64,000 bases of DNA from Chelativorans sp. (GTDB taxonomy: Bacteria > Pseudomonadota > Alphaproteobacteria > Rhizobiales > Rhizobiaceae), in the NCBI RefSeq assembly GCF_031180965.1, contig NZ_JAPSLH010000006.1, forward strand, positions 124,001 to 188,000, written 5' to 3'. The notes under the pieces were generated by a model. It was not told the DNA's origin. It saw only the letters and a list, made by a program, of their open reading frames with translations, and did not search any database. Below are positions 6,376-41,744 of this stretch, in pieces; positions within the stretch are counted from its first letter, which is position 1, and each line of letters opens with the position of its first letter. The translations under genes and the position numbers were made by a program.

Positions 6376-7380
6376 ATGACCATCAGATTTGCGCTTCTCG
6401 GCGCGGGACGCATCGGCAAGGTCCACGCAAAGGCGATCACCTCAAATGCGGATGCGAGGCTTGTTGCCGTTGCCGACGCGGTGGAGGCTGCTGCGACCGA
6501 CATCGCCGGGAAATATGGCTGCGAGATCCGGACGACCGATGAGATCGAGAGGGCGGGCGACATCGATGCCGTGGTGATCTGCACGCCCACCGACACCCAT
6601 GCCGACCTGATCGAGCGCTTTGCGCGTGCCGGCAAGGCGATCTTCTGCGAAAAGCCGATCCACCTCGATCTCGCCCGCGTGAAGTCATGCCTGAAGGTGG
6701 TGCGGGAGACAGGGGCCACGCTGATGGTCGGCTTCAACCGCCGCTTTGATCCGCACTTTCTCGCGGTGCGAAAGGCCATCGACGAGGGCAGGATCGGGAC
6801 CGTCGAGATGGTGCAGATCATTTCGCGCGATCCCGGCGCTCCGCCCGTGAGCTACATCCGCTCTTCCGGCGGCATCATGCGCGACATGACGATCCATGAT
6901 TTCGACATGGCCCGCTTCCTTCTCGGCGAGGAGCCGGACACGGTGTTCGCCACGGCTTCCGTTCTGGTGGATCCGGAGATCGGCAGGGCGGGCGACCATG
7001 ACAGCGTTTCCGTCATCCTGACCACGGCCTCAGGAAAACACTGCTCCATCTCCAATTCGCGCCGCGCCACCTATGGCTATGATCAGCGCATCGAGGTGCA
7101 CGGGTCGAAGGGCGCGGTTTCGGCCGAAAACCAGCGGCCGGTCTCGATCGAGATCGCGACCGGCGAGGGTTACACCAGGCCACCGCTGCATGATTTCTTC
7201 ATGACGCGCTACACGGAAGCCTATGCTGCCGAAATCGCCGCCTTCATCGCGGCCCTTTCCGGCAAAAAACCCGCCTCGCCTTCGGGCGAAGACGGGTTGA
7301 AAGCGCTGGCTTTGGCGGATGCCGCGTACCTCTCGATCCGGGAGGGCCGGGCGGTAAAGGTATCCGAAGTGCTGGGCTAG
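6376..7380 (+). CDS. iolG: inositol 2-dehydrogenase
   Basis: This 334-residue NAD-dependent enzyme would oxidise myo-inositol to scyllo-inosose, the first step of inositol breakdown. It has the Rossmann motif GAGRIGKVHAKA (about residues 8-19), FCEKPIHLDL with the conserved lysine near residue 94, GFNRRFDPHF, and GGIMRDMTIHDFDMARFLLG, which supplies the catalytic Asp/His pair typical of IolG. The ATG at 6376 follows AAAAGAGAC. It sits directly behind a sugar ABC transporter rather than with iolCDEB, 2.5 kb before iolR. This supports inositol or a stereoisomer as the transporter cargo. Confidence 0.88.
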   Translation: MTIRFALLGAGRIGKVHAKAITSNADARLVAVADAVEAAATDIAGKYGCEIRTTDEIERAGDIDAVVICTPTDTHADLIERFARAGKAIFCEKPIHLDLARVKSCLKVVRETGATLMVGFNRRFDPHFLAVRKAIDEGRIGTVEMVQIISRDPGAPPVSYIRSSGGIMRDMTIHDFDMARFLLGEEPDTVFATASVLVDPEIGRAGDHDSVSVILTTASGKHCSISNSRRATYGYDQRIEVHGSKGAVSAENQRPVSIEIATGEGYTRPPLHDFFMTRYTEAYAAEIAAFIAALSGKKPASPSGEDGLKALALADAAYLSIREGRAVKVSEVLG

Positions 7381-7385
7381 CGCGT

Positions 7386-7408
7386 CGCCCTCCCAATCAT
7401 GGGGGGCG
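7386..7408. terminator. hairpin between convergent genes
   Basis: CGCCCTCC (7386-7393) pairs with GGGGGGCG (7401-7408), with one G-U pair, across a 7-nt loop. It lies between the iolG stop and the stop of the convergent SH3-like gene, so it could end transcription from both sides. There is no strong T-run. Confidence 0.45.
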
Positions 7409-7429
7409 ATCGCCAGCCTGGACCTGGGC

Positions 7430-7927
7430 CTACTGGCCGCTCAGATAATTGGCGTTGACCCAGCCTTGCCAGCCATCCACGCGAATCTTCTGCCAACCCT
7501 TTGTTGCGTAGGGAAGGAAGGAGATTCCGCATTTGTTGCGCTGCAGGCGCACGAGCACGCGCGACTGTGGCGAGGGGAAGGCGCGGACATTGAGCCTGTC
7601 GCCCTGCGCCACGCCCGTCACACAATAGCGCGCCGGCGAAACCATCGAGATATAGCGCCTGTGGACCCAGCCGAGGCTGTGTCCATCCTCAACCTTGCAC
7701 CAGTTTCCGGAGCACTGATTGACCAGAATGCCGCAGTCTCCGTAGCGCTTCTGCGCCGTGATCGGAGCGCTGGCGCTTGGTCCTTCCCGCATGTTCAGGC
7801 GATCGTCGGAACGCACATTGACGACACAATGCTCTTCCCCCTCGACCACCTGAGCCGCCGCTGGAAGTTCCGACAGGAAAAAGAGTGCCGCCGCTGCCAA
7901 CACTCCGCGTACCAAAAAAGAACTCAT
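7430..7927 (-). CDS. secreted SH3-like domain protein
   Basis: This 165-residue protein has a signal peptide (MSSFLVRGVLAAAALFFLS, cleavage near AAAQ at residue 26). Two bacterial SH3-like repeats follow. The first carries DRLNMREGPSASAPITA with the cysteine-flanked NQCSGNWCKVEDG and WVHRRYIS. The second carries DRLNVRAFPSPQSRVLVRL with KIRVDGWQGWVNANYL. Such domains usually bind peptidoglycan or act in the envelope. The ATG at 7927 was preferred over longer in-frame starts because CAGGGGGAAG lies just upstream and the signal peptide begins there. It is convergent with iolG and has no obvious functional partner. Confidence 0.8.
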   Translation of the reverse strand: MSSFLVRGVLAAAALFFLSELPAAAQVVEGEEHCVVNVRSDDRLNMREGPSASAPITAQKRYGDCGILVNQCSGNWCKVEDGHSLGWVHRRYISMVSPARYCVTGVAQGDRLNVRAFPSPQSRVLVRLQRNKCGISFLPYATKGWQKIRVDGWQGWVNANYLSGQ

Positions 7928-8041
7928 ATTTCTTCCCCCTGCGTTACCTGGGAGTGCAATAGCACCATCTTCCTGAACGGCAGCTGTATGATTGAGGCTC
8001 GGCTCTCGTCTTGTTTGTGGAACCGAGAATGCTATTTTTGA

Positions 8042-8221
8042 ATGATGACCAGGCTTGAGCAGATCGAGAAATCCGTTGCCTCTCTCTCGGACGAGGAGCT
8101 GAAATCCTTCGCCGAGTGGTTTGACGAATTGCGTTGGCAGCGCTGGGACCGCCAGATCGAGGCCGATACCAAAGCTGGCAAGCTCGATAGGTTTTTGACG
8201 GCGGCTCGTACCAAACCATGA
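8042..8221 (+). CDS. orphan antitoxin-like small protein, C-terminus altered
   Basis: This 59-residue acidic helical protein begins MMTRLEQIEKSVASLSDEEL and continues with WFDELRWQRWDRQIEADTKAGKLDR. It resembles the short antitoxins encoded beside RelE/ParE-type toxins in alphaproteobacteria. The last residues (FLTAARTKP) look shortened compared with the usual tail, as I recall the family. No toxin gene follows: the next 70 bp are non-coding and are followed by an unrelated small gene. It is probably a solitary or decaying antitoxin. A second ATG lies at 8045. Confidence 0.5.
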   Translation: MMTRLEQIEKSVASLSDEELKSFAEWFDELRWQRWDRQIEADTKAGKLDRFLTAARTKP

Positions 8222-8293
8222 CGGTGTTTCTGTTGCCGCCATCTCCGAACATGTGCGTGCGCCATAGGGGCGCACCGATGTTCGGAGGTTTTG

Positions 8294-8473
8294 ATGCACC
8301 ACAAGCGAAAGCGGCCGAAAAGTGCACGAGCAGGTTGTCTTTTGTGCAAACCACATAAGGCAAATGGGTGCTGTCCCAAGCATAAGGACATGAGGCACGG
8401 CAATCGGCGCCGCTACGAATCGGGAAGTGATCAGTTGCGCTGCGAGGGTGTTCAGGCACCAAGGCGGCAGTGA
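8294..8473 (+). CDS. small basic conserved-type hypothetical protein
   Basis: This 59-residue very basic protein begins MHHKRKRPKSARAGCLLCKP, with the Lys/Arg-rich N-terminus and the CLLCKP motif of a small uncharacterised family seen in Rhizobiales. A second cysteine pair (GCCPKH) follows, so metal binding is possible. The ATG at 8294 follows TTCGGAGG. The C-terminal third (after about residue 40) shows no recognisable features and may have been altered, as it runs up to a repeat block. Function unknown. Confidence 0.5.
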   Translation: MHHKRKRPKSARAGCLLCKPHKANGCCPKHKDMRHGNRRRYESGSDQLRCEGVQAPRRQ

Positions 8474-8485
8474 TCGGCCCCCTCT

Positions 8486-8690
8486 CTTGCAAATTCCAAG
8501 GACTTAGCTTCGCTAAGCCCAAGAATTTGCTTTCTCCCCCGCCAAGGGGGAGAAAGGCGCACCGCGCCGTCGCCTCCGCAAGTCTTCTCAGTCGGCGATT
8601 CGCAACGAAGCCGGTGCCGGCGGTTTCTCCCCCTTGCCAGGGGAGAAAGCGATTTCAACATCTTAGCGATGGCCAAGTGTTAGAAATCGC
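8486..8690. repeat. block of nested palindromes, rhizobial intergenic repeat type
   Basis: Four inverted repeats are packed into about 200 bp. GCAAATTC/GAATTTGC (8489-8496/8523-8530) encloses CTTAGC/GCTAAG (8503-8508/8512-8517). CTTTCTCCCCC/GGGGGAGAAAG spans 8530-8556. TTTCTCCCC/GGGGAGAAA spans 8624-8648. GCGATTTC/GAAATCGC spans 8649-8690. The two TTTCTCCCCC hairpins are near copies of one another. The arrangement resembles dispersed palindromic elements of rhizobial intergenic DNA. It lies just downstream of the minus-strand oxidoreductase stop and may also act as a terminator. Confidence 0.65.
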
Positions 8691-8722
8691 GGGTGAGGGC
8701 TCCGGCGTAGCCGCCATACATG

Positions 8723-9841
8723 CTACACCTCCACCCTTCGCCCCTCCCGCGCCGAAGTGGCCATCGCGTGGATTGCCTTCTCGAACTCAAGCGCCTCCGA
8801 AAAATCCGGCGAGGATTTTTCGCCGCCGCCGACCCAGCGAAGGAAGGCGCCGGCTTCGAGCACCTTCAGGTCGTTGAAGCCGAGCTGGTGGCCGGGCGCG
8901 GGGCAGAAGAGGCCGTATGGCGGGTGCGCCGGTCCGGTGAGGATCGTCTTGAAACCCTGCAGTGCCCGGTCGCCTTCGTTCTGGTAAAGCTGCAATTCGT
9001 TCATGCGCTCCTGGTCGAAGACGAGCATGCCCTTCGTGCCGTGCACTTCCCAGGCGAGCTTGCTCTTGCGGCCCCAAGCCGTGCGCGAGGCAGAGAGCGA
9101 GCCCTGCGCGCCGTTTCTGAACCGCACCAGCGCGGTGGCGACGTCTTCGTTCTCCACCGGCTTGCGCTCGCTGCCGTCGGGCATCGCGCGCGTCTCATGC
9201 ACGGTCTGCATGTCGGCAACCAGGCTTTGGATCGGCCCCATGAGTCCGTAGGCCATGGAAACCAGATGGCAGCCGAGGTCGCCCAACGCGCCCAGGCCCG
9301 CTTCCTCCAGCCGCGCGCGCCAGGTCCAGGGCAGGTCGGGGTCGGCCTGATAATCTTCGTCCACCCAGCCGCGGAAGTGGATCGGGCGGCCGATGTCGCC
9401 GTCCCTCACCAGCCGGCAGGCATGCTGGAAGGCGGGATTCTTGATGTAGTTGTAGCCGACGATGGTCTTGACGCGCGCTTTCGCGGCGGCTGCCGCCATC
9501 TCCTCCGCCTCCGCCAGCGTCAGGCCCATCGGCTTTTCGCAATGGACGTGTTTGCCCGCCGCGATCGCCGCCAGCGCCATCTCCCGATGCAGCTGGTTGG
9601 GCGTGGTGACCGAAACGATGTCGACTCGAGGATCGGAGACAAGCTCCCGCCAGTCGTCCGTTGAGCGCGCAAATCCGAACTGCTCGGCCATCGCCCGCGC
9701 CTTCTCGCCCGGAACGTCGCACAGGAGCTCCAGCCGCGCCTCCGGCACATCGCCCATCACCGCCCTTGCTGCGCGGTAGGCGAGCGCATGCGCCTTCCCC
9801 ATGAAGCCGGTGCCGATGAGTCCAATTCCTATGGCGCGCAT
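8723..9841 (-). CDS. Gfo/Idh/MocA family oxidoreductase, divergent from iolR
   Basis: This 372-residue NAD(P)-dependent dehydrogenase has the Rossmann motif GLIGTGFMGKAHA (about residues 7-19), HCEKPMGLTLAEA near residue 99 and GYNYIKNPAFQHA. The catalytic-type GALGDLGCHLVSMAYGLMG lies near residue 180. It resembles oxidoreductases that act on inositol stereoisomers or glycosides. It is transcribed away from iolR, and the shared 95-bp promoter region holds a TGGAA-N6-TTCCA palindrome. It is therefore probably repressed with the inositol genes, and a scyllo- or chiro-inositol dehydrogenase role is a fair guess. The ATG at 9841 is preceded on the minus strand by GGAGGAGC. Confidence 0.88.
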   Translation of the reverse strand: MRAIGIGLIGTGFMGKAHALAYRAARAVMGDVPEARLELLCDVPGEKARAMAEQFGFARSTDDWRELVSDPRVDIVSVTTPNQLHREMALAAIAAGKHVHCEKPMGLTLAEAEEMAAAAAKARVKTIVGYNYIKNPAFQHACRLVRDGDIGRPIHFRGWVDEDYQADPDLPWTWRARLEEAGLGALGDLGCHLVSMAYGLMGPIQSLVADMQTVHETRAMPDGSERKPVENEDVATALVRFRNGAQGSLSASRTAWGRKSKLAWEVHGTKGMLVFDQERMNELQLYQNEGDRALQGFKTILTGPAHPPYGLFCPAPGHQLGFNDLKVLEAGAFLRWVGGGEKSSPDFSEALEFEKAIHAMATSAREGRRVEV

Positions 9842-26051: not shown

Positions 26052-26125
26052 TGGCTGGGGAACCTGGATTCGAACCAGGACTAACGGAGTCAGAGTCCGC
26101 TGGTCTACCGTTAACCTATTCCCCA
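26052..26125 (-). tRNA. tRNA-Gln (anticodon CTG)
   Basis: On the minus strand the sequence folds as a cloverleaf. The acceptor TGGGGAA (from 26125) pairs with TTCCCCA, followed by G and an encoded CCA at 26054-26052. The anticodon stem GCGGA/TCCGT encloses loop CTCTGAC, giving anticodon CTG, which reads CAG. The T arm is CCTGG-TTCGAAT-CCAGG. Length is 74 nt including CCA. Confidence 0.95.
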
Positions 26126-32563: not shown

Positions 32564-33346
32564 CTAACGGGCCGGGGCGCAGGCCGTGAGCACTGTCGCC
32601 AGCAGCTTTGCCCAATAGCCGGCGGTTTCGCCGGTGATCAGGTCGTTGCGAATCTCGAACTCGACGCAGGGGAGACCGCGCTTTTCTCCATGGACGGGTA
32701 TCGCGTAGTCGGTGTCGTCGCTGACCTTGTAGGGCTCGTTGATTCCGACCGTATGATCGGTGGTCTCCTGCAGCCATCGCGCTACGGCAGGGGCGAACTC
32801 CCGGTCCCGGTTGTAAAGCACGCCGATCTCCCACGGACGCTGTACCCCCAGAAAAACCGGCGTGAATGTGTGGATGGTGGCAAGCACCGTCGGCCTGCCC
32901 TCCGCCTGCCGTCGATCGAGGAAGGCGGTCACGGCGTCGTGGAAAGGCCAGAAGATCGCCTCCGCCCGTGCCTGTCGCGCGGCCTCGCTCAGCGCGACAT
33001 TGCCGGGGATCTGGGTCGCCTCGCTCACCTCCGGCGCAAAGCTCGGCACGTCCGGCCGGCGGTTGCAGTCGCAGACGAGGCGCGAATAGCGCTGCATGAA
33101 GAGCGGCGCGTCGAGCATGTCCGAGAGGGCGACCGCCACCGCTCTTGCGCCGATATCCCACGCGATATGCCGGACAAGATCCTCCTCACCGAGGCCTAGC
33201 GTGCCGAGCGAGCGCGGCATGAGCCTGCCGGCGTGTTCGCATATCAGCACGAAGCCGGACCGTCCCTGCTCGTTTCGCGTTTCCAGCGGATGCGGCTCGT
33301 CGGGGGCTAGGATGATTGTCTGCTTTGGCGCGGTAAGGCTCGTCAC
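32564..33346 (-). CDS. N-formylglutamate amidohydrolase family protein
   Basis: This 260-residue hydrolase has the family segments GFVLICEHAGRLMP near residue 31, HIAWDIGARAVAVALS, and RYSRLVCDCNRRPD. TIHTFTPVFLGVQRPWEIGV and VEFEIRNDLI follow. The His/Glu pattern fits the zinc-type fold of HutG. No histidine-degradation genes are nearby. Instead it is divergent from a Liv-type ABC operon, with a shared operator-like box 18 bp upstream of its start, so it probably removes an acyl or amide group from a compound imported by that transporter. The start is GTG at 33346. Confidence 0.82.
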   Translation of the reverse strand: MTSLTAPKQTIILAPDEPHPLETRNEQGRSGFVLICEHAGRLMPRSLGTLGLGEEDLVRHIAWDIGARAVAVALSDMLDAPLFMQRYSRLVCDCNRRPDVPSFAPEVSEATQIPGNVALSEAARQARAEAIFWPFHDAVTAFLDRRQAEGRPTVLATIHTFTPVFLGVQRPWEIGVLYNRDREFAPAVARWLQETTDHTVGINEPYKVSDDTDYAIPVHGEKRGLPCVEFEIRNDLITGETAGYWAKLLATVLTACAPAR

Positions 33347-33363: not shown

Positions 33364-33419
33364 TGTATCAAATCGTACAAATCCCGCTTACAATTGCAAT
33401 CTGTATCTTTTTGTTGACG
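33364..33419. promoter_or_regulatory. divergent control region with two RpiR-type boxes (copy A)
   Basis: Box 1, TGTATCAAATCGTACA (33364-33379), is an imperfect TGTA-N8-TACA palindrome lying 18 bp before the minus-strand gene. Box 2, TGTATCTTTTTGTTGA (33402-33417), starts exactly 38 bp later and overlaps the -35 TTGACG (33414-33419) of the plus-strand ABC operon. A -10 TATCGT lies 16 bp further on. The same two-box layout at the same spacing recurs at 39747-39802 next to the rpiR gene. Confidence 0.6.
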
Positions 33420-33466
33420 GCTCCGCGAGGCTCGCTATCGTCGCGGAAGGCTTTCTGGGGACGAGC

Positions 33467-34255
33467 GTGACGGAAGCGATCATCGAGGCACATGGTCTGA
33501 GCAGGATCTTCGGCGGGCTCGTCGCCGTGGACGGCTACGGCTTACGCCTGGCCGGCGGCGAACTTGTCGGCCTCATCGGCCCCAACGGCGCCGGGAAGAC
33601 GACCGCCTTCAACCTGCTCACGGGCGTGCTGAAGCCCAGCGCCGGAAGGATACTGATACGGGGACAGGATCTTACGGGCGCCAGGCCGCATGTCCTGGCG
33701 CGGGCAGGGGTGGCGCGCACATTCCAGAACATTCGCCTTTTCAGCGACCTCAGCGCGTTGGAAAATGTCATGTGCGGCGGTCATATGCGGCATGGCTCCT
33801 CACTGATCAAAACCCTTGCACAACTGCCCGCGTTCTGGCGCAGCGAGAAGCTGATCGCGCGCCGCGCGGCGGAGATCATCGATCGGACGGGCTTGTCCGC
33901 GCTGGCCTACAGGCGCGCCGGCGATCTTTCCTATGGCGATCAGCGCCGGGTGGAGATCGCAAGGGCGCTGGCCACCGAGCCTGCCGCCCTTCTCTTGGAC
34001 GAGCCCGCGGCAGGCCTGAACCCCAGCGAGACGCAGAAGCTCGTCGAGCTCATCCGCCGTATCAACGAGGATATGGGGGTGAGCGTGCTGGTGGTGGAGC
34101 ATGACATGCGGCTGGTGATGGGGCTCTGTCGGCGCGTGCAGGTGCTGAACCGGGGCAAGCTCGTTGCCGAGGGTACCCCGGCCGAAGTGCAGGCCGATCC
34201 GGCCGTCATAGAAGCCTATCTCGGCACCCGTCGGAAAGCCCTGGCCAATGCTTGA
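33467..34255 (+). CDS. Liv-type ABC transporter ATP-binding protein (LivG-like)
   Basis: This 262-residue ATPase has Walker A LIGPNGAGKTTAFNLLTG near residue 36, VARTFQNIRLFSDLSALENV, signature LSYGDQRRVEIARAL, Walker B LLLDEPAAGLNPSET and switch VLVVEHDMRLVMGL. The long insert between Q-loop and signature is typical of LivG. It is the first gene of a five-gene run (ATPase, ATPase, permease, permease, amidohydrolase). The GTG at 33467 follows TGGGGACGAG. It would power uptake of an amino-acid-like or amide compound. The matching binding protein is encoded 5 kb downstream. Confidence 0.92.
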   Translation: MTEAIIEAHGLSRIFGGLVAVDGYGLRLAGGELVGLIGPNGAGKTTAFNLLTGVLKPSAGRILIRGQDLTGARPHVLARAGVARTFQNIRLFSDLSALENVMCGGHMRHGSSLIKTLAQLPAFWRSEKLIARRAAEIIDRTGLSALAYRRAGDLSYGDQRRVEIARALATEPAALLLDEPAAGLNPSETQKLVELIRRINEDMGVSVLVVEHDMRLVMGLCRRVQVLNRGKLVAEGTPAEVQADPAVIEAYLGTRRKALANA

Positions 34256-34970
34256 AGTGCGCGGTCTCGACGTCTTTCGCGGCGCCACCCATGTGCTGAA
34301 GGACGTTTCCTTTAATGTCGCCCGAGGCGAGCTTGCCGCGCTCATCGGGGCGAACGGAGCCGGCAAGTCCACGACGCTTCTGACGCTTTCGGGGCTGCTT
34401 CGCCCGCGCTCGGGTCTAGCGGTCATGCGAACGGAAGGAGGGGAGATCGACCTTACCCGCGCCAGTGCGGAACGGATCGTACGCGCAGGACTGATCCACT
34501 GCCCCGAGGGGCGGCAAATCTTTCAGTCCCTGACGGTCGCGGAGAACTTGGCAATGGGCGCCTACACCCGCTCCAGGCGAGAGGAGATCGCTGCTGCGAC
34601 AGCGGAGGTACATGAGCTCTTCCCCATCCTGAAGGAGCGGGCGTCTCTGCCTGCCGGTTCCCTCTCCGGCGGCGAACAGATGATGCTTGCGATAGGCCGC
34701 GCCCTGCTCGCCTCGCCAAAGCTGCTTCTGCTCGACGAGCCCTCCCTGGGCCTGGCGCCCAAGGTGGTCGAGACGATCTTTGATGTTATTGCGAGGCTGA
34801 AGGCGCAGGGAGTGACGATCCTGCTCATCGAGCAGAATGCCGTGATGGCGCTTGAGATCGCCGACCGTGCCTATGTGATGGAAAACGGGCGCATCGTGCT
34901 CGCAGGGGCCGGCCGGGAGCTGATGGACAATGACCGCGTGCGCCAGTCCTATCTGGGGGTCCCCTTGTGA
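34248..34970 (+). CDS. Liv-type ABC transporter ATP-binding protein (LivF-like)
   Basis: This 240-residue ATPase has Walker A LIGANGAGKSTTLLTLSG near residue 32, IHCPEGRQIFQSLTVAENLA, signature LSGGEQMMLAIGRAL, Walker B LLLLDEPSLGLAPK and switch ILLIEQNAVMALEIA, all in LivF form. It overlaps the LivG-like gene by 8 bp. A less usual point is the segment RTEGGEIDLTRASAERI, slightly longer than in typical LivF. It forms the ATPase heterodimer with the preceding protein. Confidence 0.92.
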   Translation: MLEVRGLDVFRGATHVLKDVSFNVARGELAALIGANGAGKSTTLLTLSGLLRPRSGLAVMRTEGGEIDLTRASAERIVRAGLIHCPEGRQIFQSLTVAENLAMGAYTRSRREEIAAATAEVHELFPILKERASLPAGSLSGGEQMMLAIGRALLASPKLLLLDEPSLGLAPKVVETIFDVIARLKAQGVTILLIEQNAVMALEIADRAYVMENGRIVLAGAGRELMDNDRVRQSYLGVPL

Positions 34971-35857
34971 GCCAGTATCTGTTCCAGCAGCTGGTGAACG
35001 GCCTGTCGCTTGGGAGCCTCTACGCTCTTGTGGCGATCGGCTTCTCGATGATCTACGGCATCGTGCGGTTGATCAATTTCGCTCATGGCGACCTTGTGAT
35101 GATAGGCGCCTTTTCCACCCTGGCGATGATCGCCGTTGGCGTCCCCTGGCCGCTGATCCTCGTCTTCGTCCTGATGATCGGCGCAGTAGCGGGCATGCTG
35201 ATCGAGAGCGTCGTCTTCCGTCCGATCCGCGGCGCGCCGCAGGTGACCGGCTTCATCGCCACGCTAGCCGTCTCGATCGTCATCCAGAACAGTGCGCTGT
35301 TGCTGCTCACAGGGCAGCAGCGCAACTTCGTCTTCCCTGCCTTCATGCGCCAGCGCGTGCCGCTCGGCGGCGTCAGCGCCTCGCTGACGGATATGGTCAT
35401 CATCTGCCTGACGCTGCTGTTGATCGCTATCCTCTTCTTCATCGTCTACCGTACGCGGCTAGGCACCGCCATGCGGGCGACGGCGGAGAACCTGATGGCG
35501 GCCCGCCTGATGGGTGTTTCCGTCAATCGGACGATCCTCGCCGCCTTCGCGATTGGCAGCGCGCTCGCGGCCGTCGCCGGCGTGTTCTGGGGCGGCAAGT
35601 TCGGACAGATCGATCCGCTCCTCGGCTTTGTTCCCGGTTTGAAGGCCTTCGTCGCCTGTGTGATCGGCGGCGTCGGCTCTCTCGGCGGCGCGATGCTTGG
35701 CGGCTACATTCTGGGCCTTGCGGAGGTCCTCTTCGTTGGTCTTCTGCCTCAGGAGCTCTCCGGCTATCGCGACGCGTTCGTATTCCTGCTCCTCATCGTC
35801 ATCCTTCTCGTCAAGCCTTCCGGACTGTTCGTGCGCCATGTCGAAGACCGTGCCTGA
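34967..35857 (+). CDS. Liv-type ABC transporter permease (LivH-like)
   Basis: This 296-residue membrane protein begins with QLVNGLSLGSLYALVAIGFS and MIYGIVRLINFAHGDLVMIG, the classic LivH start. It ends with FVACVIGGVGSLGGAMLGGY near residue 225 and about eight helices in all. The GTG at 34967 overlaps the LivF-like stop as GTGA. It overlaps the next permease by 20 bp. The substrate is not determined by the sequence. Confidence 0.92.
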   Translation: MSQYLFQQLVNGLSLGSLYALVAIGFSMIYGIVRLINFAHGDLVMIGAFSTLAMIAVGVPWPLILVFVLMIGAVAGMLIESVVFRPIRGAPQVTGFIATLAVSIVIQNSALLLLTGQQRNFVFPAFMRQRVPLGGVSASLTDMVIICLTLLLIAILFFIVYRTRLGTAMRATAENLMAARLMGVSVNRTILAAFAIGSALAAVAGVFWGGKFGQIDPLLGFVPGLKAFVACVIGGVGSLGGAMLGGYILGLAEVLFVGLLPQELSGYRDAFVFLLLIVILLVKPSGLFVRHVEDRA

Positions 35858-36878
35858 CGAGACCCCGCTGCCCATTCGAGGCTTTGCGGCCGCTGCTTTA
35901 GTCGCGGCCGCCGCCGCTGCCGCGGTGTGGCTCGCCCAGGCAAGCCTTAGCGACTATGTCGTCACGCTGCTGGCTGTGCTCTTCCTCAACGCGGCTCTTG
36001 CCGTTTCGCTGAACTTCACCAACGGCTTCACCGGCCTTTTCTCGCTTGGCCATCCAGCCTTCATGACCATCGGCGCCTACGTGGCGGCGATCCTAACCTT
36101 TCCGGAACGCCGCAAGGGCACGATGCTGCCGGGCCTGCCCGAGTTCCTCGCCACGACCGAGCTTTCGCTGCTGCCGGCTATTCTGATCGCCGGCGCCGTG
36201 GCCGCAGTGGTAGCGCTGATTGTGGGATTCCCGGTTCTCCGGCTCCGCGGCCACTATCTGGCAGTGGCGACGCTGGGGCTGATCGTGATCATCCAGAGTC
36301 TCGCGACCAATTGGGACACCATCACGCGTGGCGGCTCGGGCCTGAGCGGCATTCCCCGCCTCACCGGCATCTGGTGGGCATTCGGTTTCATGCTCGTGGT
36401 GATCGCCGCTGCCTGGCGCATTAAGTTCTCTTCACTCGGGCGCGCCATGATGGCCACGCGCGAGAACGAACTTGCGGCGGAATGCGTCGGCATCGATACG
36501 GTGAGGGTCCGGATGCTGGCTTTCGTGCTCGGCGCATTTTTTGCCGCGGTCGCTGGCGCACTGCTTGTCCATCTGATCAGCGTGGTGACGCCAAGAACCT
36601 ACTCCGTCCTGCTTGCGTTCAACCTGGTGGTGATGGTGGTGATCGGCGGTTCGGGAAGCATCATCGGCGCGGTGATCGCCGCATCCGCGATTACCGTTCT
36701 GTCGGAGGCGTTGCGGCCGGTGGAGGAATCGGTGGGCCTTTACGGCATGAGCCAGGTGATAGTGGCGCTGGCGCTCATCCTGGTCCTATACCTTCGCCCG
36801 CAAGGCCTGTTCGGCAGTGGCGAACCGATGATCGTGCGGCGCCTTTTCGGAGGAGATCGGTTTGGGCAGACCCCGTGA
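35838..36878 (+). CDS. Liv-type ABC transporter permease (LivM-like)
   Basis: This 346-residue membrane protein has about ten helices after an Ala-rich N-terminus. LivM landmarks are NAALAVSLNFTNGFTGLFSL near residue 45, GHPAFMTIGAYVAAIL, and PVLRLRGHYLAVATLGLIVI. RAMMATRENELAAECVGIDT and VVMVVIGGSGSIIGAVIAAS follow. The ATG at 35838 lies inside the end of the LivH-like gene; upstream in-frame starts would overlap it much further. It overlaps the following amidohydrolase gene by 17 bp. Confidence 0.9.
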   Translation: MSKTVPDETPLPIRGFAAAALVAAAAAAAVWLAQASLSDYVVTLLAVLFLNAALAVSLNFTNGFTGLFSLGHPAFMTIGAYVAAILTFPERRKGTMLPGLPEFLATTELSLLPAILIAGAVAAVVALIVGFPVLRLRGHYLAVATLGLIVIIQSLATNWDTITRGGSGLSGIPRLTGIWWAFGFMLVVIAAAWRIKFSSLGRAMMATRENELAAECVGIDTVRVRMLAFVLGAFFAAVAGALLVHLISVVTPRTYSVLLAFNLVVMVVIGGSGSIIGAVIAASAITVLSEALRPVEESVGLYGMSQVIVALALILVLYLRPQGLFGSGEPMIVRRLFGGDRFGQTP

Positions 36879-37506
36879 ACGGGATGTTTTTCACAGCCGC
36901 GTCCTCCCGCTGCTCGCTGACCGGCTGGGGCTGCTCGTCATTGACGTGCAGAACTGGGTGATGGACGAGAAGAACCGCCAGCCCCGGCCTGAATTCTACG
37001 AGGATGCGCACTCGACCGTGATTCCCAATATCCGCCGGCTGATAGAAGCGGCGCGTGGCCATGGTGTCGAGGTGATCTACACAGTGATGGAGAATTTTAC
37101 CGAGGACGGCCGCGACCGAAGCCTCGACTATAAGCTTTCGAATTTCTTCATTCCGAAAGGGTCGTGGGACGCAAAGGTGGTCGACGAGATCCGGCCGGAG
37201 CCGGACGAGATGGTCATCCCGAAGACTTCCTCGAGCCTCTTCAACTCGACGAATTTCGAGTATCTGATCCGCAATATCGGCCTCGACACGATCGCAGTCA
37301 CCGGCTTCCTGACGGATCAATGTGTCGACCACACGATCCGGGACGGCGCCGACCGCGGCTTTCACATGATCTGCGTGAGCGATGCCTGCGCGACGGATAC
37401 GCGCCTGCGCCATCAGGCCGCACTGAACGCTTTCAAAGGCTATTGCCGCATGGAAACCACGGACTCGTTGCTGGCGGCGATGAGCCGCGACTTTGCAGCT
37501 CAGTAG
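36862..37506 (+). CDS. isochorismatase-fold cysteine hydrolase, copy 1
   Basis: This 214-residue protein has the triad of the cysteine hydrolase family: Asp28 in LLVIDVQN, Lys121 in IPKTSSSLFNSTNFEY and Cys154 in GFLTDQCVDHTIRDG. The segment ENFTEDGRDRSLDYKLSNF is shared with the second copy at 41112 and resembles ureidoacrylate or biuret-type amidohydrolases. It probably hydrolyses an amide or carbamoyl group of the imported substrate. The TTG at 36862 follows TCGGAGGAGA at good spacing. The stop overlaps the convergent ligase gene by 7 bp. Confidence 0.87.
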   Translation: MGRPRERDVFHSRVLPLLADRLGLLVIDVQNWVMDEKNRQPRPEFYEDAHSTVIPNIRRLIEAARGHGVEVIYTVMENFTEDGRDRSLDYKLSNFFIPKGSWDAKVVDEIRPEPDEMVIPKTSSSLFNSTNFEYLIRNIGLDTIAVTGFLTDQCVDHTIRDGADRGFHMICVSDACATDTRLRHQAALNAFKGYCRMETTDSLLAAMSRDFAAQ

Positions 37507-38816
37507 GCAAGCCGATATTTCTCGCACTGTTCCGCAGGGGAGAGCGCCGACATGAGCTTCTCCTCAAAGCGCTTATGGGCCAGATAGGCCGATTTGAGCT
37601 CGGGACCGAACAGGTCCGTCAGCTCCTCCTCGGCTTCAAAAGCGTCGAGCGCCTCCCCGAGCGACTGCGGGAGCCGTACGATCGCGAGCCTGTCCAGATC
37701 CTCCTGAGCCATGTTCTGCGGCGCGCCCTGGCAGACAGGCGGCGCCGGCAGGTCCTGGTCCAATCCATATAGGCCGGCGGCTAGGATGGCGCCGAGCACA
37801 AGATAGGGGCTGCCGGTGGCATCGGCTGCGCGGTACTCGAAATGATATTGCCGTGCGATTTGCTCTTCGGCGGTCGCAAACACGGGACAAATGCGCACGC
37901 CGGCCTCGCGGTCGCGGAACCCGAGATTGTTGTAAGCGGCGCTCCAGCGGTTCGGCGTCAGCCGGAGATAGGAGACTGAGGAGGCCGCCGTGACGGCGGT
38001 GATGGCGGGCAACTTCTGCAGGATTCCGGCGATGAAGGCGCCCGCCCTCGCCGAGAGCCCATGTGGTGCTTGCGCGTTGTAGTTGACCGGCATGCCCGTG
38101 GCGGCATCCTGCAGGCTGAAATGGACGTGCACGCCGTTGCCGACTGCATCTGGGCGGAGGATGGGTGTGAAGCTGACGCGCGTACCGAGCCGCGTTGCTA
38201 CCGCGCGCGCGATCTCGCGTATGGCGACAGCCTGGTCGGCGGAACGCACGCCGGTGGCCGGGCCGACCGTCACCTCGTATTGCTTCGGGCCGTATTCGGG
38301 CATGAAGGTGTCGAGCGTGATACCCGCTTCCTTCAGCGCACCAAGAAAGCTCTCGGCGAAAATGTCCTGGCGTCGGAAGGAATCGAGCGCATAGCTGGCA
38401 TTCGGCCTTTCCTCCACGCCTTCGAAGACGAACTCATGCTCGAAGGCTGATTTCACTTTCAGCCCGTGGCGCTTCTCGATTGCCTCGAGAACGCGCTTGA
38501 GGAAACCCCGAGGACAAACCTCCCAGGGCGTGCCATCGATATGGCAGATATCGCCAATGACGAAATGCTCGGCGGCGTGATCCTCGCCGAAATCGACCCG
38601 TATGCGGCTTTCGGGATCAGGCTTCAGCACCAGGTCGCCGAATGGCCCCCATGGGCTGGGGGCGATCGGCCCATGGGCCGTGATCATGCTGTTCGTCGGC
38701 GTCCAGCCGATGCCGCGCGTGAGCCGCTCTTCCAGATCGGAGACGGGAAAGCCCTTGCCTCGCATCTGGCCTGCCAGGTCGCATGTGCAGATCATGACGA
38801 TCTCTTCGCGTCGCAT
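37500..38816 (-). CDS. glutamine synthetase family protein (probable gamma-glutamyl ligase)
   Basis: This 438-residue protein has the catalytic fold of GlnA: SAFEHEFVFEG near residue 121 with metal-binding glutamates, EYGPKQYEVTVGPATGVRSA, GNGVHVHFSL with the ammonia-site histidine, and NRWSAAYNNLG with RRAA-like contacts. FEYRAADATGSPYLVLGAIL follows. There is no clear adenylylation loop and the sequence is not that of housekeeping GlnA, so it may couple glutamate to an amine as PuuA or GlnA3/4 enzymes do. It begins directly after the rpiR stop (no gap), which ties it to that regulator. Confidence 0.85.
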   Translation of the reverse strand: MRREEIVMICTCDLAGQMRGKGFPVSDLEERLTRGIGWTPTNSMITAHGPIAPSPWGPFGDLVLKPDPESRIRVDFGEDHAAEHFVIGDICHIDGTPWEVCPRGFLKRVLEAIEKRHGLKVKSAFEHEFVFEGVEERPNASYALDSFRRQDIFAESFLGALKEAGITLDTFMPEYGPKQYEVTVGPATGVRSADQAVAIREIARAVATRLGTRVSFTPILRPDAVGNGVHVHFSLQDAATGMPVNYNAQAPHGLSARAGAFIAGILQKLPAITAVTAASSVSYLRLTPNRWSAAYNNLGFRDREAGVRICPVFATAEEQIARQYHFEYRAADATGSPYLVLGAILAAGLYGLDQDLPAPPVCQGAPQNMAQEDLDRLAIVRLPQSLGEALDAFEAEEELTDLFGPELKSAYLAHKRFEEKLMSALSPAEQCEKYRLAY

Positions 38817-39731
38817 CTAATCTCCCCGTTTCAACAGCGTCTCGGTGCGGTTCAGCCCGGCTTCCTTTGGCGCAAATGGCCGCCGCAATTCCTCCAGCGC
38901 CTCAATGCGCTCGCGCCCCGACCCGCCGAGCTTGCTTGCGACGGCCCCCACCAGCGCCTCCGAAAGCGCCATTCCGATGGTGAGCACGTCGAAGATGGAG
39001 GGGGACTCAACCTGGAAGGTGAGCACGTGATCGGCTGCGCGCGAGGCGGGTGATTGCCAGGCATCGGTCAGCAGCACCACGGTGGCGCCGCGCCGGGACG
39101 CGGCGCCGGCGAATTCGATGACGTCCTGCTGGTATCTCCGGACATCGAAGACCAGGAGCACGCTGCTCTTGCCCATATCGAGCAGATGCTGCGGCCATTG
39201 CTGCGTTTGCCCCCGGATGGTGAAGACGCGGCCGCGCACCGCGGTGAGCAGGTCCGCCACATAGGCGCCGAGATTGGAGGAATAGCGGCCGCCCACTATG
39301 TGTATGTCGCGGCGAGGGTCGGAAAGGAGGGCGACGACCTTCTCGAACTCCGCCGCGGGAACGCTGCCGCGCAGGGCCTGCATGTGACCCACCATCGCTT
39401 CCATGAAGCGGTCGAGAAACGGGTCGTTTTCGGACCCTTCAGAGACCTGGCGCTCGCCGAAACGGATCAGCGGCGACTGCAGTGTCTCCTCCAGATGTCT
39501 GCGCAATGCCGCCTGGAAATCGGCATAGACGGAAAAGCCCAGCCTTTTCACGAGCCGCAGGATGGTGGCGGTGCTGACGCCGCTCTGGGCGGCGAATTCG
39601 GCGACGGTGGTGAGGCCGGCCATCGGATAATTCGCAAGGAGATGGCGCGCGGCGCGCGCTTCGCGCCCGCTCAACTGCGGCAAATCCCGGCGAAGCTGTT
39701 CCAGCACCGTGCCTTTTTCCAATATCGCCAT
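38817..39731 (-). CDS. MurR/RpiR family transcriptional regulator
   Basis: This 304-residue regulator has an N-terminal RpiR helix-turn-helix (about 10-85, with LTTVAEFAAQSGVSTATILR and LVKRLGFSVYADFQ). A C-terminal SIS domain follows (about 125-275, with DIHIVGGRYSSNLGAYVADL and SVLLVFDVRRYQQDVIEFAG). It precedes the glutamine-synthetase-like gene and is divergent from the binding-protein gene. Two operator-like boxes lie in the 171-bp intergenic region, one 16 bp before its own start, and the same pair controls the transporter operon. The ATG at 39731 follows CCCGGGAGG. The effector may be a phosphorylated or amino metabolite. Confidence 0.9.
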   Translation of the reverse strand: MAILEKGTVLEQLRRDLPQLSGREARAARHLLANYPMAGLTTVAEFAAQSGVSTATILRLVKRLGFSVYADFQAALRRHLEETLQSPLIRFGERQVSEGSENDPFLDRFMEAMVGHMQALRGSVPAAEFEKVVALLSDPRRDIHIVGGRYSSNLGAYVADLLTAVRGRVFTIRGQTQQWPQHLLDMGKSSVLLVFDVRRYQQDVIEFAGAASRRGATVVLLTDAWQSPASRAADHVLTFQVESPSIFDVLTIGMALSEALVGAVASKLGGSGRERIEALEELRRPFAPKEAGLNRTETLLKRGD

Positions 39732-39746
39732 TCTGCACCTCCCGGA

Positions 39747-39802
39747 TGTATCAAATCAGACAAAACGCCTGCTTGAAAGAAAAATGTACGATTCGATTGA
39801 CG
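39747..39802. promoter_or_regulatory. divergent control region with two RpiR-type boxes (copy B)
   Basis: Box 1, TGTATCAAATCAGACA (39747-39762), shares GGATGTATCAAATC and the trailing ACAAA with copy A. Box 2, TGTACGATTCGATTGA (39785-39800), starts 38 bp after box 1 and overlaps a -35 TTGACG (39797-39802) for the binding-protein gene. Box 2 is also close to the reverse complement of the copy A box 1. Confidence 0.6.
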
Positions 39803-39902: not shown

Positions 39903-41045
39903 ATGAACAGATTGATTGCAGCCTCCGTGGCGTTTGCGGCCATGCTGGCAAGCGCGTCCGCGCAGGAGACCATCAAGATCGGCGCACTCTACAACCTCAC
40001 GGGCGGCATGTCGTCGCTCGACGGGCCCTCGCTCAAGGGCGCGCAACTCGCCGTGAAGCAGATCAATGCCCAAGGCGGACTTCTGGACAAGCAGGTTGAA
40101 CTGATCGCGCCGGACGGCAAGACGGACCAGCAGGAGACCGCCAAGGCCGCACAGCGCGTCCTTTCGGAAGGGGTTGTGGCAGGTATCGGCCAATCCGACA
40201 CGACTTTCGTCATGGCCGGCGCTCCGCTGTTCCAGGAGAAGGGCGTGCCTTTCGTCACTTCGGGCGCCACCCATCCCGAGCTGCCGCAATGGGTGGGCGA
40301 CTATATGTTCATGACGCCGTTCGGTGACGACGACCAATCCTATGCCATTGCCGACTACGCCTATGACAAGCTCGGCGCGCGGCGCGTCGCGGTCTGGACC
40401 GACAACTCCATGGATTTCACCAAGGCGCTGAGCGCCTTCTTCACCGAGCGCTTCCAGGAGCGGGGCGGCGAGGTCGTCGGCACCGACACTTTCATGATGG
40501 GCGATACGGACTTCTCCGCGCAGATCGCGCGGTTGGCCTCCATGGACCCGGCACCCGATGCCGTCTTCGTATCGGCCATCCCGTCGGAGGCGGGCCTGTC
40601 GGTCAAGCAGATCCGCGAGCAAGGCATCAACATCCCGATCGTCTCCGGCGACGGCTTCGACACGGAGCTCGTCTCCACTGTGCCCGGTCCTGAACTCGCC
40701 AACGACGTCTATTTCTCGACCCACACTTATCGCGCCGACGACCGGCCCGAGGTCAAGAAGTTCATCGAGGACTACAAGGCCGAGTATGGCATCGAGCCGG
40801 AAAACGCATTCGCGCCGCTCGGCTATGACGCCATGATGCTGGTGGCGGATGCCATCAAGCGTGCGAACTCGGCCGAGCCGGCCAAGATCAGAGACGCACT
40901 GGCCGAAACGCGCGGCTTCAAGGGCGTGACCGGGGAGATCAGCTATACGCGCGCCAATATGGTGCCGCCAAAGCCGGTCTCGATCATCAGCGTCAAGAAC
41001 GGAAAATATGCCGTCGAGGAGATCTGGCGTCCCGAGACGCAGTAA
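39903..41045 (+). CDS. Liv-type ABC transporter substrate-binding protein
   Basis: This 380-residue periplasmic protein has a signal peptide (MNRLIAASVAFAAMLASA, cleaved near ASAQ, residue 20) and the Peripla_BP_6 pattern: IKIGALYNLTGGMSSLDGPS, GAQLAVKQINAQGG, and GIGQSDTTFVMAGAPLFQEK. FVSAIPSEAGLSVKQIREQG and FAPLGYDAMMLVADAIKRA follow. It is the natural partner of the LivHMGF-like genes 3-6 kb upstream, from which it is separated by the ligase and rpiR genes. A strong hairpin follows the stop. The ligand is unknown; this family binds amino acids, amides and urea-like compounds. Confidence 0.92.
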   Translation: MNRLIAASVAFAAMLASASAQETIKIGALYNLTGGMSSLDGPSLKGAQLAVKQINAQGGLLDKQVELIAPDGKTDQQETAKAAQRVLSEGVVAGIGQSDTTFVMAGAPLFQEKGVPFVTSGATHPELPQWVGDYMFMTPFGDDDQSYAIADYAYDKLGARRVAVWTDNSMDFTKALSAFFTERFQERGGEVVGTDTFMMGDTDFSAQIARLASMDPAPDAVFVSAIPSEAGLSVKQIREQGINIPIVSGDGFDTELVSTVPGPELANDVYFSTHTYRADDRPEVKKFIEDYKAEYGIEPENAFAPLGYDAMMLVADAIKRANSAEPAKIRDALAETRGFKGVTGEISYTRANMVPPKPVSIISVKNGKYAVEEIWRPETQ

Positions 41046-41111: not shown

Positions 41112-41744
41112 ATGACCGCCGAAAAAGGCAGCACGCTCGCACATTACGAGGGCCGAAACCGGAAGCTGGTGGCAGCGCGGACCGCCGTTCTGGTCGTTGA
41201 CGCGCAGAATGCCGAACTCGAGCCTGAAATCCTGAACAAGCATCCCGAATTCGAGCGCGCTCTTCGCCAGCGCGCCCTGCCCGCGATGAAGAAGCTGATA
41301 GAAGGGGCCAGGGAGAAAGGCTGCGAGATCGTCTATACTGTCATCGAGGCGCTGACGCTTGACGGGCGTGACCGCTCACTCGACCACAAGCTTTCGAACA
41401 TTCTGGTGCCGCGCGGCTCGCCCCTCGCCAAGGTCATCGAGGATGTGGCGCCGCATGCTGACGAGATCGTGCTGCCCAAGACGTCGTCAGGCGTCTTCAA
41501 TTCCACAAATCTCGACTATGTTCTGCGCAATCTGGGCGTGGAAAACGTCGTCGTCACCGGTTTCGTGACGGATCAGTGCGTGGACATGGCGATCCGCGAC
41601 GGGGCCGACCGGGGCTACTATATGGTCTGCGCCGCTGACGCCTGCGCCGCCTATTCGGAGGAGCGTCACTCGACCGCACTTAGGGCTTTCGGCGGTTATT
41701 GCCGCATCCAGACCGCTGACGAGGTGCTTGCCGACATCACCTGA
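41112..41744 (+). CDS. isochorismatase-fold cysteine hydrolase, copy 2
   Basis: This 210-residue protein has the catalytic triad Asp30 (VLVVDAQN), Lys123 (LPKTSSGVFNSTNLDY) and Cys156 (GFVTDQCVDMAIRDG). It is clearly related to the protein at 36862: both share YTVxE, DGRDRSLDxKLSN and the C-terminal GYCRxxTxD pattern. The residues after the triad aspartate differ (AELEPEILNKHPEF against WVMDEKNRQP), so the two may act on successive or related substrates. The ATG at 41112 follows TATGGAGAC. It is transcribed with the binding protein. Confidence 0.87.
   Translation: MTAEKGSTLAHYEGRNRKLVAARTAVLVVDAQNAELEPEILNKHPEFERALRQRALPAMKKLIEGAREKGCEIVYTVIEALTLDGRDRSLDHKLSNILVPRGSPLAKVIEDVAPHADEIVLPKTSSGVFNSTNLDYVLRNLGVENVVVTGFVTDQCVDMAIRDGADRGYYMVCAADACAAYSEERHSTALRAFGGYCRIQTADEVLADIT

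Follow-up and report, generated by a model that had tools for sequence, protein, structure and literature searches.

Paired dyad boxes at two divergent promoter regions as probable operators of a local RpiR-family regulator in Chelativorans sp.

Two box pairs in one gene cluster

Do two divergent promoter regions in one gene cluster of Chelativorans sp. serve as operators of the same RpiR-family regulator? The cluster lies within a stretch of 64,000 nucleotides (contig NZ_JAPSLH010000006.1, positions 124,001 to 188,000; hereafter the window, whose own numbering we use). One region separates the gene for an N-formylglutamate amidohydrolase-family protein (FGase) from livG, which begins a run of Liv-type ATP-binding cassette (ABC) transporter genes; the other separates rpiR, the gene for the regulator, from a gene for a periplasmic substrate-binding protein (SBP). 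Each region contains two 16-bp boxes. Based on the sequence analyses described here, we consider it probable, at roughly 85%, that these box pairs are operators of a local, autoregulated RpiR protein (38817-39731) that would repress transcription in both directions. The boxes are as follows.

33364..33379, plus strand: box 1 of the FGase/livG region, TGTATCAAATCGTACA, with the dyad TGTA-N8-TACA; kept in 13 of 13 loci that have the region, window included
33402..33417, plus strand: box 2 of the FGase/livG region, TGTATCTTTTTGTTGA, which runs into the livG -35 element TTGACG
39747..39762, plus strand: box 1 of the rpiR/SBP region, TGTATCAAATCAGACA; kept in 14 of 14 loci that have the region, window included
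39785..39800, plus strand: box 2 of the rpiR/SBP region, TGTACGATTCGATTGA, which runs into the SBP-gene -35 element TTGACG, with N17 to CATGCT

Reading the sequence directly, we found the boxes where an earlier note on this DNA had placed them, with a start-to-start distance of 38 bp in both regions. The 21-base stretches that begin with GGATGTATCAAATC are identical at 19 of 21 positions between the two regions, the second box of each region reaches TTGACG in the same register, and outside the boxes the regions are unlike each other, all of which agrees with that note. For the distance between box 1 and the minus-strand start codon, given there as 16-18 bp, we read 17 bp for FGase (GTG at 33346) and 15 bp for rpiR (ATG at 39731).

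Within the 4.37-Mb genome, a relaxed, longer box-1 motif (TGTATSAAATNNKACAAA) matches without mismatch only at the two window sites; there are no matches at 1 or 2 mismatches and nine at 3 mismatches. Because the motif is confined to two sites within 2 mismatches, the regulon looks local. A loose box pattern, which gave 10 matches in the same genome and 20 in its control, was dropped in favor of this longer motif.

Conservation in orthologous loci

Close homologues of the RpiR protein are distributed patchily: they occur in 5 of 16 genomes of the genus (E-value of 1e-80 or better) and in 2 of 397 genomes sampled from the order, with the window's own genome included in both counts. Beyond the window, 13 loci encode a close RpiR homologue (51-74% identity), namely L001 (Tianweitania sediminis), L002 (Aquamicrobium defluvii), L003 (a Mesorhizobium metagenome-assembled genome), L004 (a Rhizobiaceae metagenome-assembled genome, cut by a contig end), L005 (Mesorhizobium camelthorni), L042-L046, and L065-L067; the protein of L067 (51%) comes from another family of the order. 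These relatives are partly redundant (close pairs: L002/L003, L042/L065, and L043/L044) and amount to about eleven lineages with the window.

Conservation of the boxes in relatives that keep both gene sets was the check that the earlier note had proposed, and its outcome leaves the proposal standing: the pair is kept in all 27 readable divergent regions of the 14 loci (window included), with a spacing of 38 bp in 16 regions and 39 bp in 11. Our main spacing comparison of these regions covered 37-40 bp; when 26-49 bp were allowed, the spacing was again 38 or 39 bp in all 27, with an additional, overlapping false match at 48 bp in L002. The note's 38-bp spacing is therefore exact in the window's two regions, whereas the range among relatives is 38-40 bp.

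The box columns are highly conserved; sequence varies in the outer flanks and over the ten columns that follow box 1. Averaged over ten-column blocks in the eight FGase regions spaced at 38 bp, information reaches 1.65 and 1.50 bits at box 1, compared with 0.47 bits just before the box and 0.36 bits just after it. Box 1 has its own ending in each region (GTACAAA in 11 of 13 loci at FGase; CAGACAAA in 13 of 14 at rpiR), and box 2 fits TGTATCTTTTNGTTGAC at livG in 11 of 13 loci and TGTAYSATTCGATTGAC at the SBP gene in 11 of 14. The 19 of 21 identical positions in the box-1 stretches could be taken as chance resemblance, or as a sign that one promoter region was recently copied into the other. 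We give this explanation almost no weight: the regions are otherwise unlike, each region's box-1 variant is kept across loci, and the shuffles and control patterns reported below, together with the conservation itself, argue against it.

In a phylogenetic tree, for which long-branch warnings apply to L026, L029, L067, and L046, the shift from 38 to 39 bp maps, for both regions, to a single well-supported clade with six members. L045 is intermediate, with 38 bp at FGase and 39 bp at rpiR. This pattern is suggestive of a joint change in spacing at the two regions, though it reflects one event each. On the basis of these comparisons, the reading of both regions as operators of one RpiR regulator is well supported.

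Distant RpiR homologues and genome-wide specificity

In a wider group of homologues, rpiR and an FGase gene are transcribed divergently; a comparable set of the other cluster genes is absent around rpiR in 16 of the 18 distant loci that we mapped. Twenty-one loci were picked by RpiR similarity (39-43%). Box 1 (YGTATSAAAY) is present upstream of rpiR in 19 of them and a second dyad in 17, at 39 bp in 16 loci and at 40 bp in one; dinucleotide shuffles of these loci yielded the pair in 0 of 6300 cases. Eleven of the 21 loci were known to us when we defined the box and helped to shape it, and another two correspond to the clusters of L053 and L054; of the eight that were unseen at that stage, seven have the pair. 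Most second boxes in this group are fuller dyads (CGTAACATACGATACG, for example), and in all 13 distant loci read, the -35 element TTTGACAA precedes box 1 by 13 bp on the FGase side. The fuller second dyad and the -35 element ahead of box 1 indicate that the pair belongs to the operator itself and does not merely arise from a -35 element. At still lower RpiR identity (33-36%), loci L006, L007, and L008 have a perfect TGTA-N8-TACA beside rpiR, with no clear second box there.

In one genome (G226; contigs C8 and C13, loci L005 and L061), the orthologous cluster coexists with a distant RpiR-FGase pair whose boxes are similar. Cross-binding between these two systems is possible.

We then scanned 297 genomes of the family with a pair pattern derived from the loci above. 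The pattern gave 77 matches in 69 genomes, and its reversed control gave 1. Seventy matches are found no more than 300 bp upstream of a listed rpiR match, and a further one, in G119, precedes a weaker rpiR match by 88 bp. The remaining six mark the FGase/livG site in clusters that encode an orthologous RpiR, among them that of the window. When twelve other gap lengths (10-21 bp) were allowed, one match resulted in all (G164, gap 21), and the corresponding reversed control gave two. Some of these sites had been used to build the pattern, so the match count is in part a given; this applies less to the exclusive position beside rpiR and to the poor yield of other spacings. The rpiR-proximity comparison covered 110 of 150 listed rpiR matches, comprising all 80 that scored at least 190 bits and 30 of the 70 that scored lower; as matches below 190 bits were picked partly for having a pair, their per-bin fractions were not used.

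Proximity alone is no proof of a link between a regulator and an operator, and the boxes might instead be bound by some regulator other than this RpiR protein. We consider this very unlikely, as all 77 pair matches lie at an rpiR homologue or at the FGase/livG site of an orthologous cluster, a global regulator would show sites elsewhere, and the half-sites resemble known RpiR ones. Judged by sequence and position, the boxes are very probably docking sites of the RpiR regulator.

Promoter layout and proposed mechanism

In all 27 regions, the plus-strand promoter element TTGAC is fused to box 2, and this -35 element deviates little from the consensus (most regions have TTGACG). In 9 of 14 loci, the SBP promoter also has a -10 candidate, CATGCT or CATCCT, 17 bp further on. 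On the minus strand, box 1 overlies a -10 candidate, which is TACNAT in most loci at FGase (TACGAT in the window) and TCTGAT in most loci at rpiR. In 9 of 13 loci, a TTGMAW -35 element accompanies the FGase candidate at a spacing of 16 or 17 bp; no clear -35 element accompanies the rpiR candidate.

With box 1 over the minus-strand -10 candidate and box 2 over the plus-strand -35 element, one bound complex would silence both directions. Each 16-bp box, as a dyad (TGTA-N8-TACA or a weaker form), would accommodate one helix-turn-helix dimer, and the pair would be occupied by two dimers, probably as one SIS-linked tetramer; given that the layout is similar to that of MurR, the tetramer model is the simplest. 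The genes silenced would be FGase and livGFHM with the first isochorismatase-like gene at one region, and rpiR with a glutamine-synthetase-like (GS-like) gene and the SBP gene with the second isochorismatase-like gene at the other, hence autoregulation. The DNA would be released when an imported compound, or a product of the cluster enzymes, binds the SIS domain.

The livG promoter of the window (33414-33441) has CTATCG only 15 bp after TTGACG and TATCGT at 16 bp, whereas TATCGT or TATCAT is found at 18 bp in 7 of the 12 other loci. The window's copy may be weaker, or another -10 element may be used.

The same promoter layout bears on two alternatives. If the boxes were independent operators, with box 1 serving the minus-strand gene and box 2 the plus-strand gene, the spacing could follow from promoter geometry and not from a spanning complex. 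The fusion of box 2 to TTGAC agrees with this, and on the minus strand of the FGase/livG region 38 bp goes with TTGMAW-N16-TACNAT or TATCAT (4 loci) and 39 bp with N17 (5 loci). However, the rpiR/SBP region keeps 38 or 39 bp despite having no clear minus-strand -35 element, and the distant group holds 39 bp under a different promoter layout, with the -35 element outside the pair; we regard independent operators as unlikely. Alternatively, the protein could activate the plus-strand promoters, in which case box 2, where it overlaps the -35 element, would act as a class II activator site. An operator that overlaps a -35 element suits either sign, the plus-strand -10 candidates CATGCT and TATCGT are weak, and RpiR-family activators have been reported (GlaR, from a source accessible in part; SpNanR, in the accessible part of PMC12713135). 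Nevertheless, the plus-strand -35 elements are near consensus, box 1 also covers the minus-strand -10 candidates, and the boxes of the distant group lie on and beyond the FGase -10 element, which is a repressor position, so activation seems improbable to us.

Repression by a protein bound across both boxes thus remains our preferred account, although several observations weigh against it. In the window's group, box 2 matches a good dyad in one half only; its right half, TTGA, is shared with the -35 element, so the conservation of box 2 is partly that of the promoter. Promoter geometry could hold the FGase/livG spacing, given that the change from 38 to 39 bp goes with a 16- or 17-bp minus-strand spacer in 9 of 13 loci. 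About ten columns immediately 5' of box 2 are also conserved in the rpiR/SBP region (AAGAAAAA; 1.63 bits), as are about ten columns preceding box 2 in the five FGase regions with 39-bp spacing (ATTGCAAGAT). At a helical repeat of 10.5 bp per turn, 38-40 bp corresponds to 3.6-3.8 turns, which places the dyads on different faces of the DNA.

Some relatives also depart from the pattern. Four of the 21 distant loci do not have the full pair. Two of these are without any box: L053 and L054, the same clusters as L026 and L029, which have a fuller, rearranged cluster with the same gene types (Liv, FGase, GS-like, and isochorismatase) and an RpiR protein with 42% identity. Six stretches scanned in L053 and L054 contained no dyad with 7 or 8 of 8 matches; upstream words there include TAACAAA and TTGTTTCAAA, and either the operator has diverged or the regulator reads other sites. 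Among the 80 rpiR matches of at least 190 bits in the genome-wide comparison, 55 have the strict pair and 25 do not; of the five upstream regions that we read among these 25, one has a spacing of 40 bp, two have box 1 only, with no full second box, and two have neither.

Gene content of the cluster

The earlier note had counted eleven genes between 32.5 and 41.7 kb; we count ten. Their order is FGase (minus strand); livG, livF, livH, livM, and isochorismatase-like 1 (plus); GS-like and rpiR (minus); and SBP and isochorismatase-like 2 (plus).

32564..33346, minus strand: N-formylglutamate amidohydrolase-family protein, FGase (PF05013; 18.6 bits against the NCBIfam hutG model, cut-off 278.75)
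33467..34255, plus strand: ABC transporter ATPase, LivG-like
34248..34970, plus strand: ABC transporter ATPase, LivF-like
34967..35857, plus strand: ABC transporter permease, LivH-like
35850..36878, plus strand: ABC transporter permease, LivM-like
36862..37506, plus strand: isochorismatase-like amidohydrolase 1 (PF00857; RutB and biuret hydrolase models below cut-off)
37500..38816, minus strand: glutamine-synthetase-like ligase, immediately downstream of rpiR (274.6 bits against its nearest NCBIfam model, that of gamma-glutamylputrescine synthetase, cut-off 650)
38817..39731, minus strand: RpiR-family regulator with HTH_6 and SIS domains (Pfam PF01418 and PF01380) and, by alignment, the SIS stretch DVRRYQ
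39903..41045, plus strand: periplasmic substrate-binding protein, Liv/urea type
41112..41744, plus strand: isochorismatase-like amidohydrolase 2 (PF00857)

Among the NCBIfam models listed for the ten proteins, none reached its cut-off (for livG and livF, these were the best 25 of 186 and 188). In L043 and L044, no match to the second isochorismatase-like gene was found at an E-value of 1e-20. Elsewhere in the window, a tRNA-Gln gene (ctg; 26052-26125, minus strand) was the sole tRNA gene found.

SIS domain and candidate ligand

The regulator has an N-terminal HTH_6 domain (PF01418, E-value of 3.3e-10, 40.3 bits, cut-off 28.3) and a C-terminal SIS domain (PF01380, E-value of 8.4e-16, 58.4 bits, cut-off 25), which places it in the RpiR family. 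RpiR members that sense sugar phosphates have a Ser/Thr-rich SIS loop, S-x-S-G-x-T. This loop is absent here; across 35 aligned members, GGR and D-x-RRYQ are conserved in the SIS domain at 90% or more. Among solved structures, 4ivn gives the best sequence match (E-value of 8e-6), and we take it to be NanR of V. vulnificus (VvNanR). D-x-RRYQ aligns to SSSGST in 4ivn and to SQSGRS in 8ju9, both of which are solved, Ser-rich relatives, and the presence of D-x-RRYQ in place of a Ser-rich loop suggests that the ligand may not be a sugar phosphate. In 3sho, also an RpiR protein, the aligned stretch is VWRYLRD, which resembles DVRRYQQD of the window's regulator.

On these sequence features, an anionic, amino-acid-type ligand appears more likely than a sugar phosphate. 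FGase is the sole enzyme common to the window's group and the distant group, and the ligand may be close to the compound on which FGase acts; an N-acyl or amide amino acid is one candidate. The transporter differs, being a Liv-type ABC system in the window's group and a tripartite ATP-independent periplasmic (TRAP) system in the distant locus L061. There (6850-9501), FGase is followed by the TRAP transporter genes DctQ and DctM. Tentatively, we suggest that a widespread RpiR branch with D-x-RRYQ might sense an FGase-linked carboxylate or amide metabolite and not a sugar phosphate, and that the rigid twin-dyad spacing of 38-40 bp (3.6-3.8 turns) might let a tetramer grip two faces of the DNA, this spacing having been kept through the change of transporter.

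With this analysis, the RpiR branch of the window's bacterial family would gain a defined operator, a local regulon, and a testable ligand class, and other regulons of the D-x-RRYQ branch should be predictable from sequence. The 77 sites provide a natural data set on how tightly spacing is held in an RpiR two-site operator.

Comparison with known systems

In the open-access literature that we searched, we found no description of this regulon; most subscription papers lay outside that search, and we do not claim its absence from print. Two adjacent dyads over promoter elements, the arrangement of MurR, are present in the sequence, with box 2 a weak dyad in the window's group, and so is a dyad with TGTA-type half-sites near the regulator's own gene, as in the RpiR family. 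The ligand and target genes of MurR differ from those here. The proposal for E. coli MurR, in the accessible part of a preprint (PMC12713135), is that a tetramer spans two neighboring sites, which lie over the -35 and -10 elements. MurR thus resembles the window's system in family and in having two adjacent, promoter-overlapping sites; however, the sites described there are 17 bp apart and span 47 bp, whereas the 16-bp boxes here are 22-24 bp apart and span 54-56 bp. VvNanR, as described in the same part, is a repressor and also has two adjacent sites, but these are ~55 bp each.

Based on the accessible part of PMC5489143, RccR and HexR of Pseudomonas are also RpiR-family proteins with related half-sites (TGTAGT/ACTACA for RccR, TTGT-N7-8-ACAA for HexR) and few operators. 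They differ in having 15-bp or 28-bp dyads or TTGT-N7-8-ACAA, and in their effector, 2-keto-3-deoxy-6-phosphogluconate, a sugar phosphate; at aceE, RccR has two 15-bp sites 68 bp apart. PMC5343134, in its accessible part, gives HexR as its RpiR regulon. We rejected HexR as the identity of the window's regulator: the box-1 spacer is 10 where TTGT and ACAA are both present, and the targets are amidase-like, ligase-like, and Liv-type transporter genes and not those of central carbon metabolism. The two-site design of an RpiR operator is already known; what distinguishes the system described here is a strict, widely shared spacing together with a non-standard SIS stretch.

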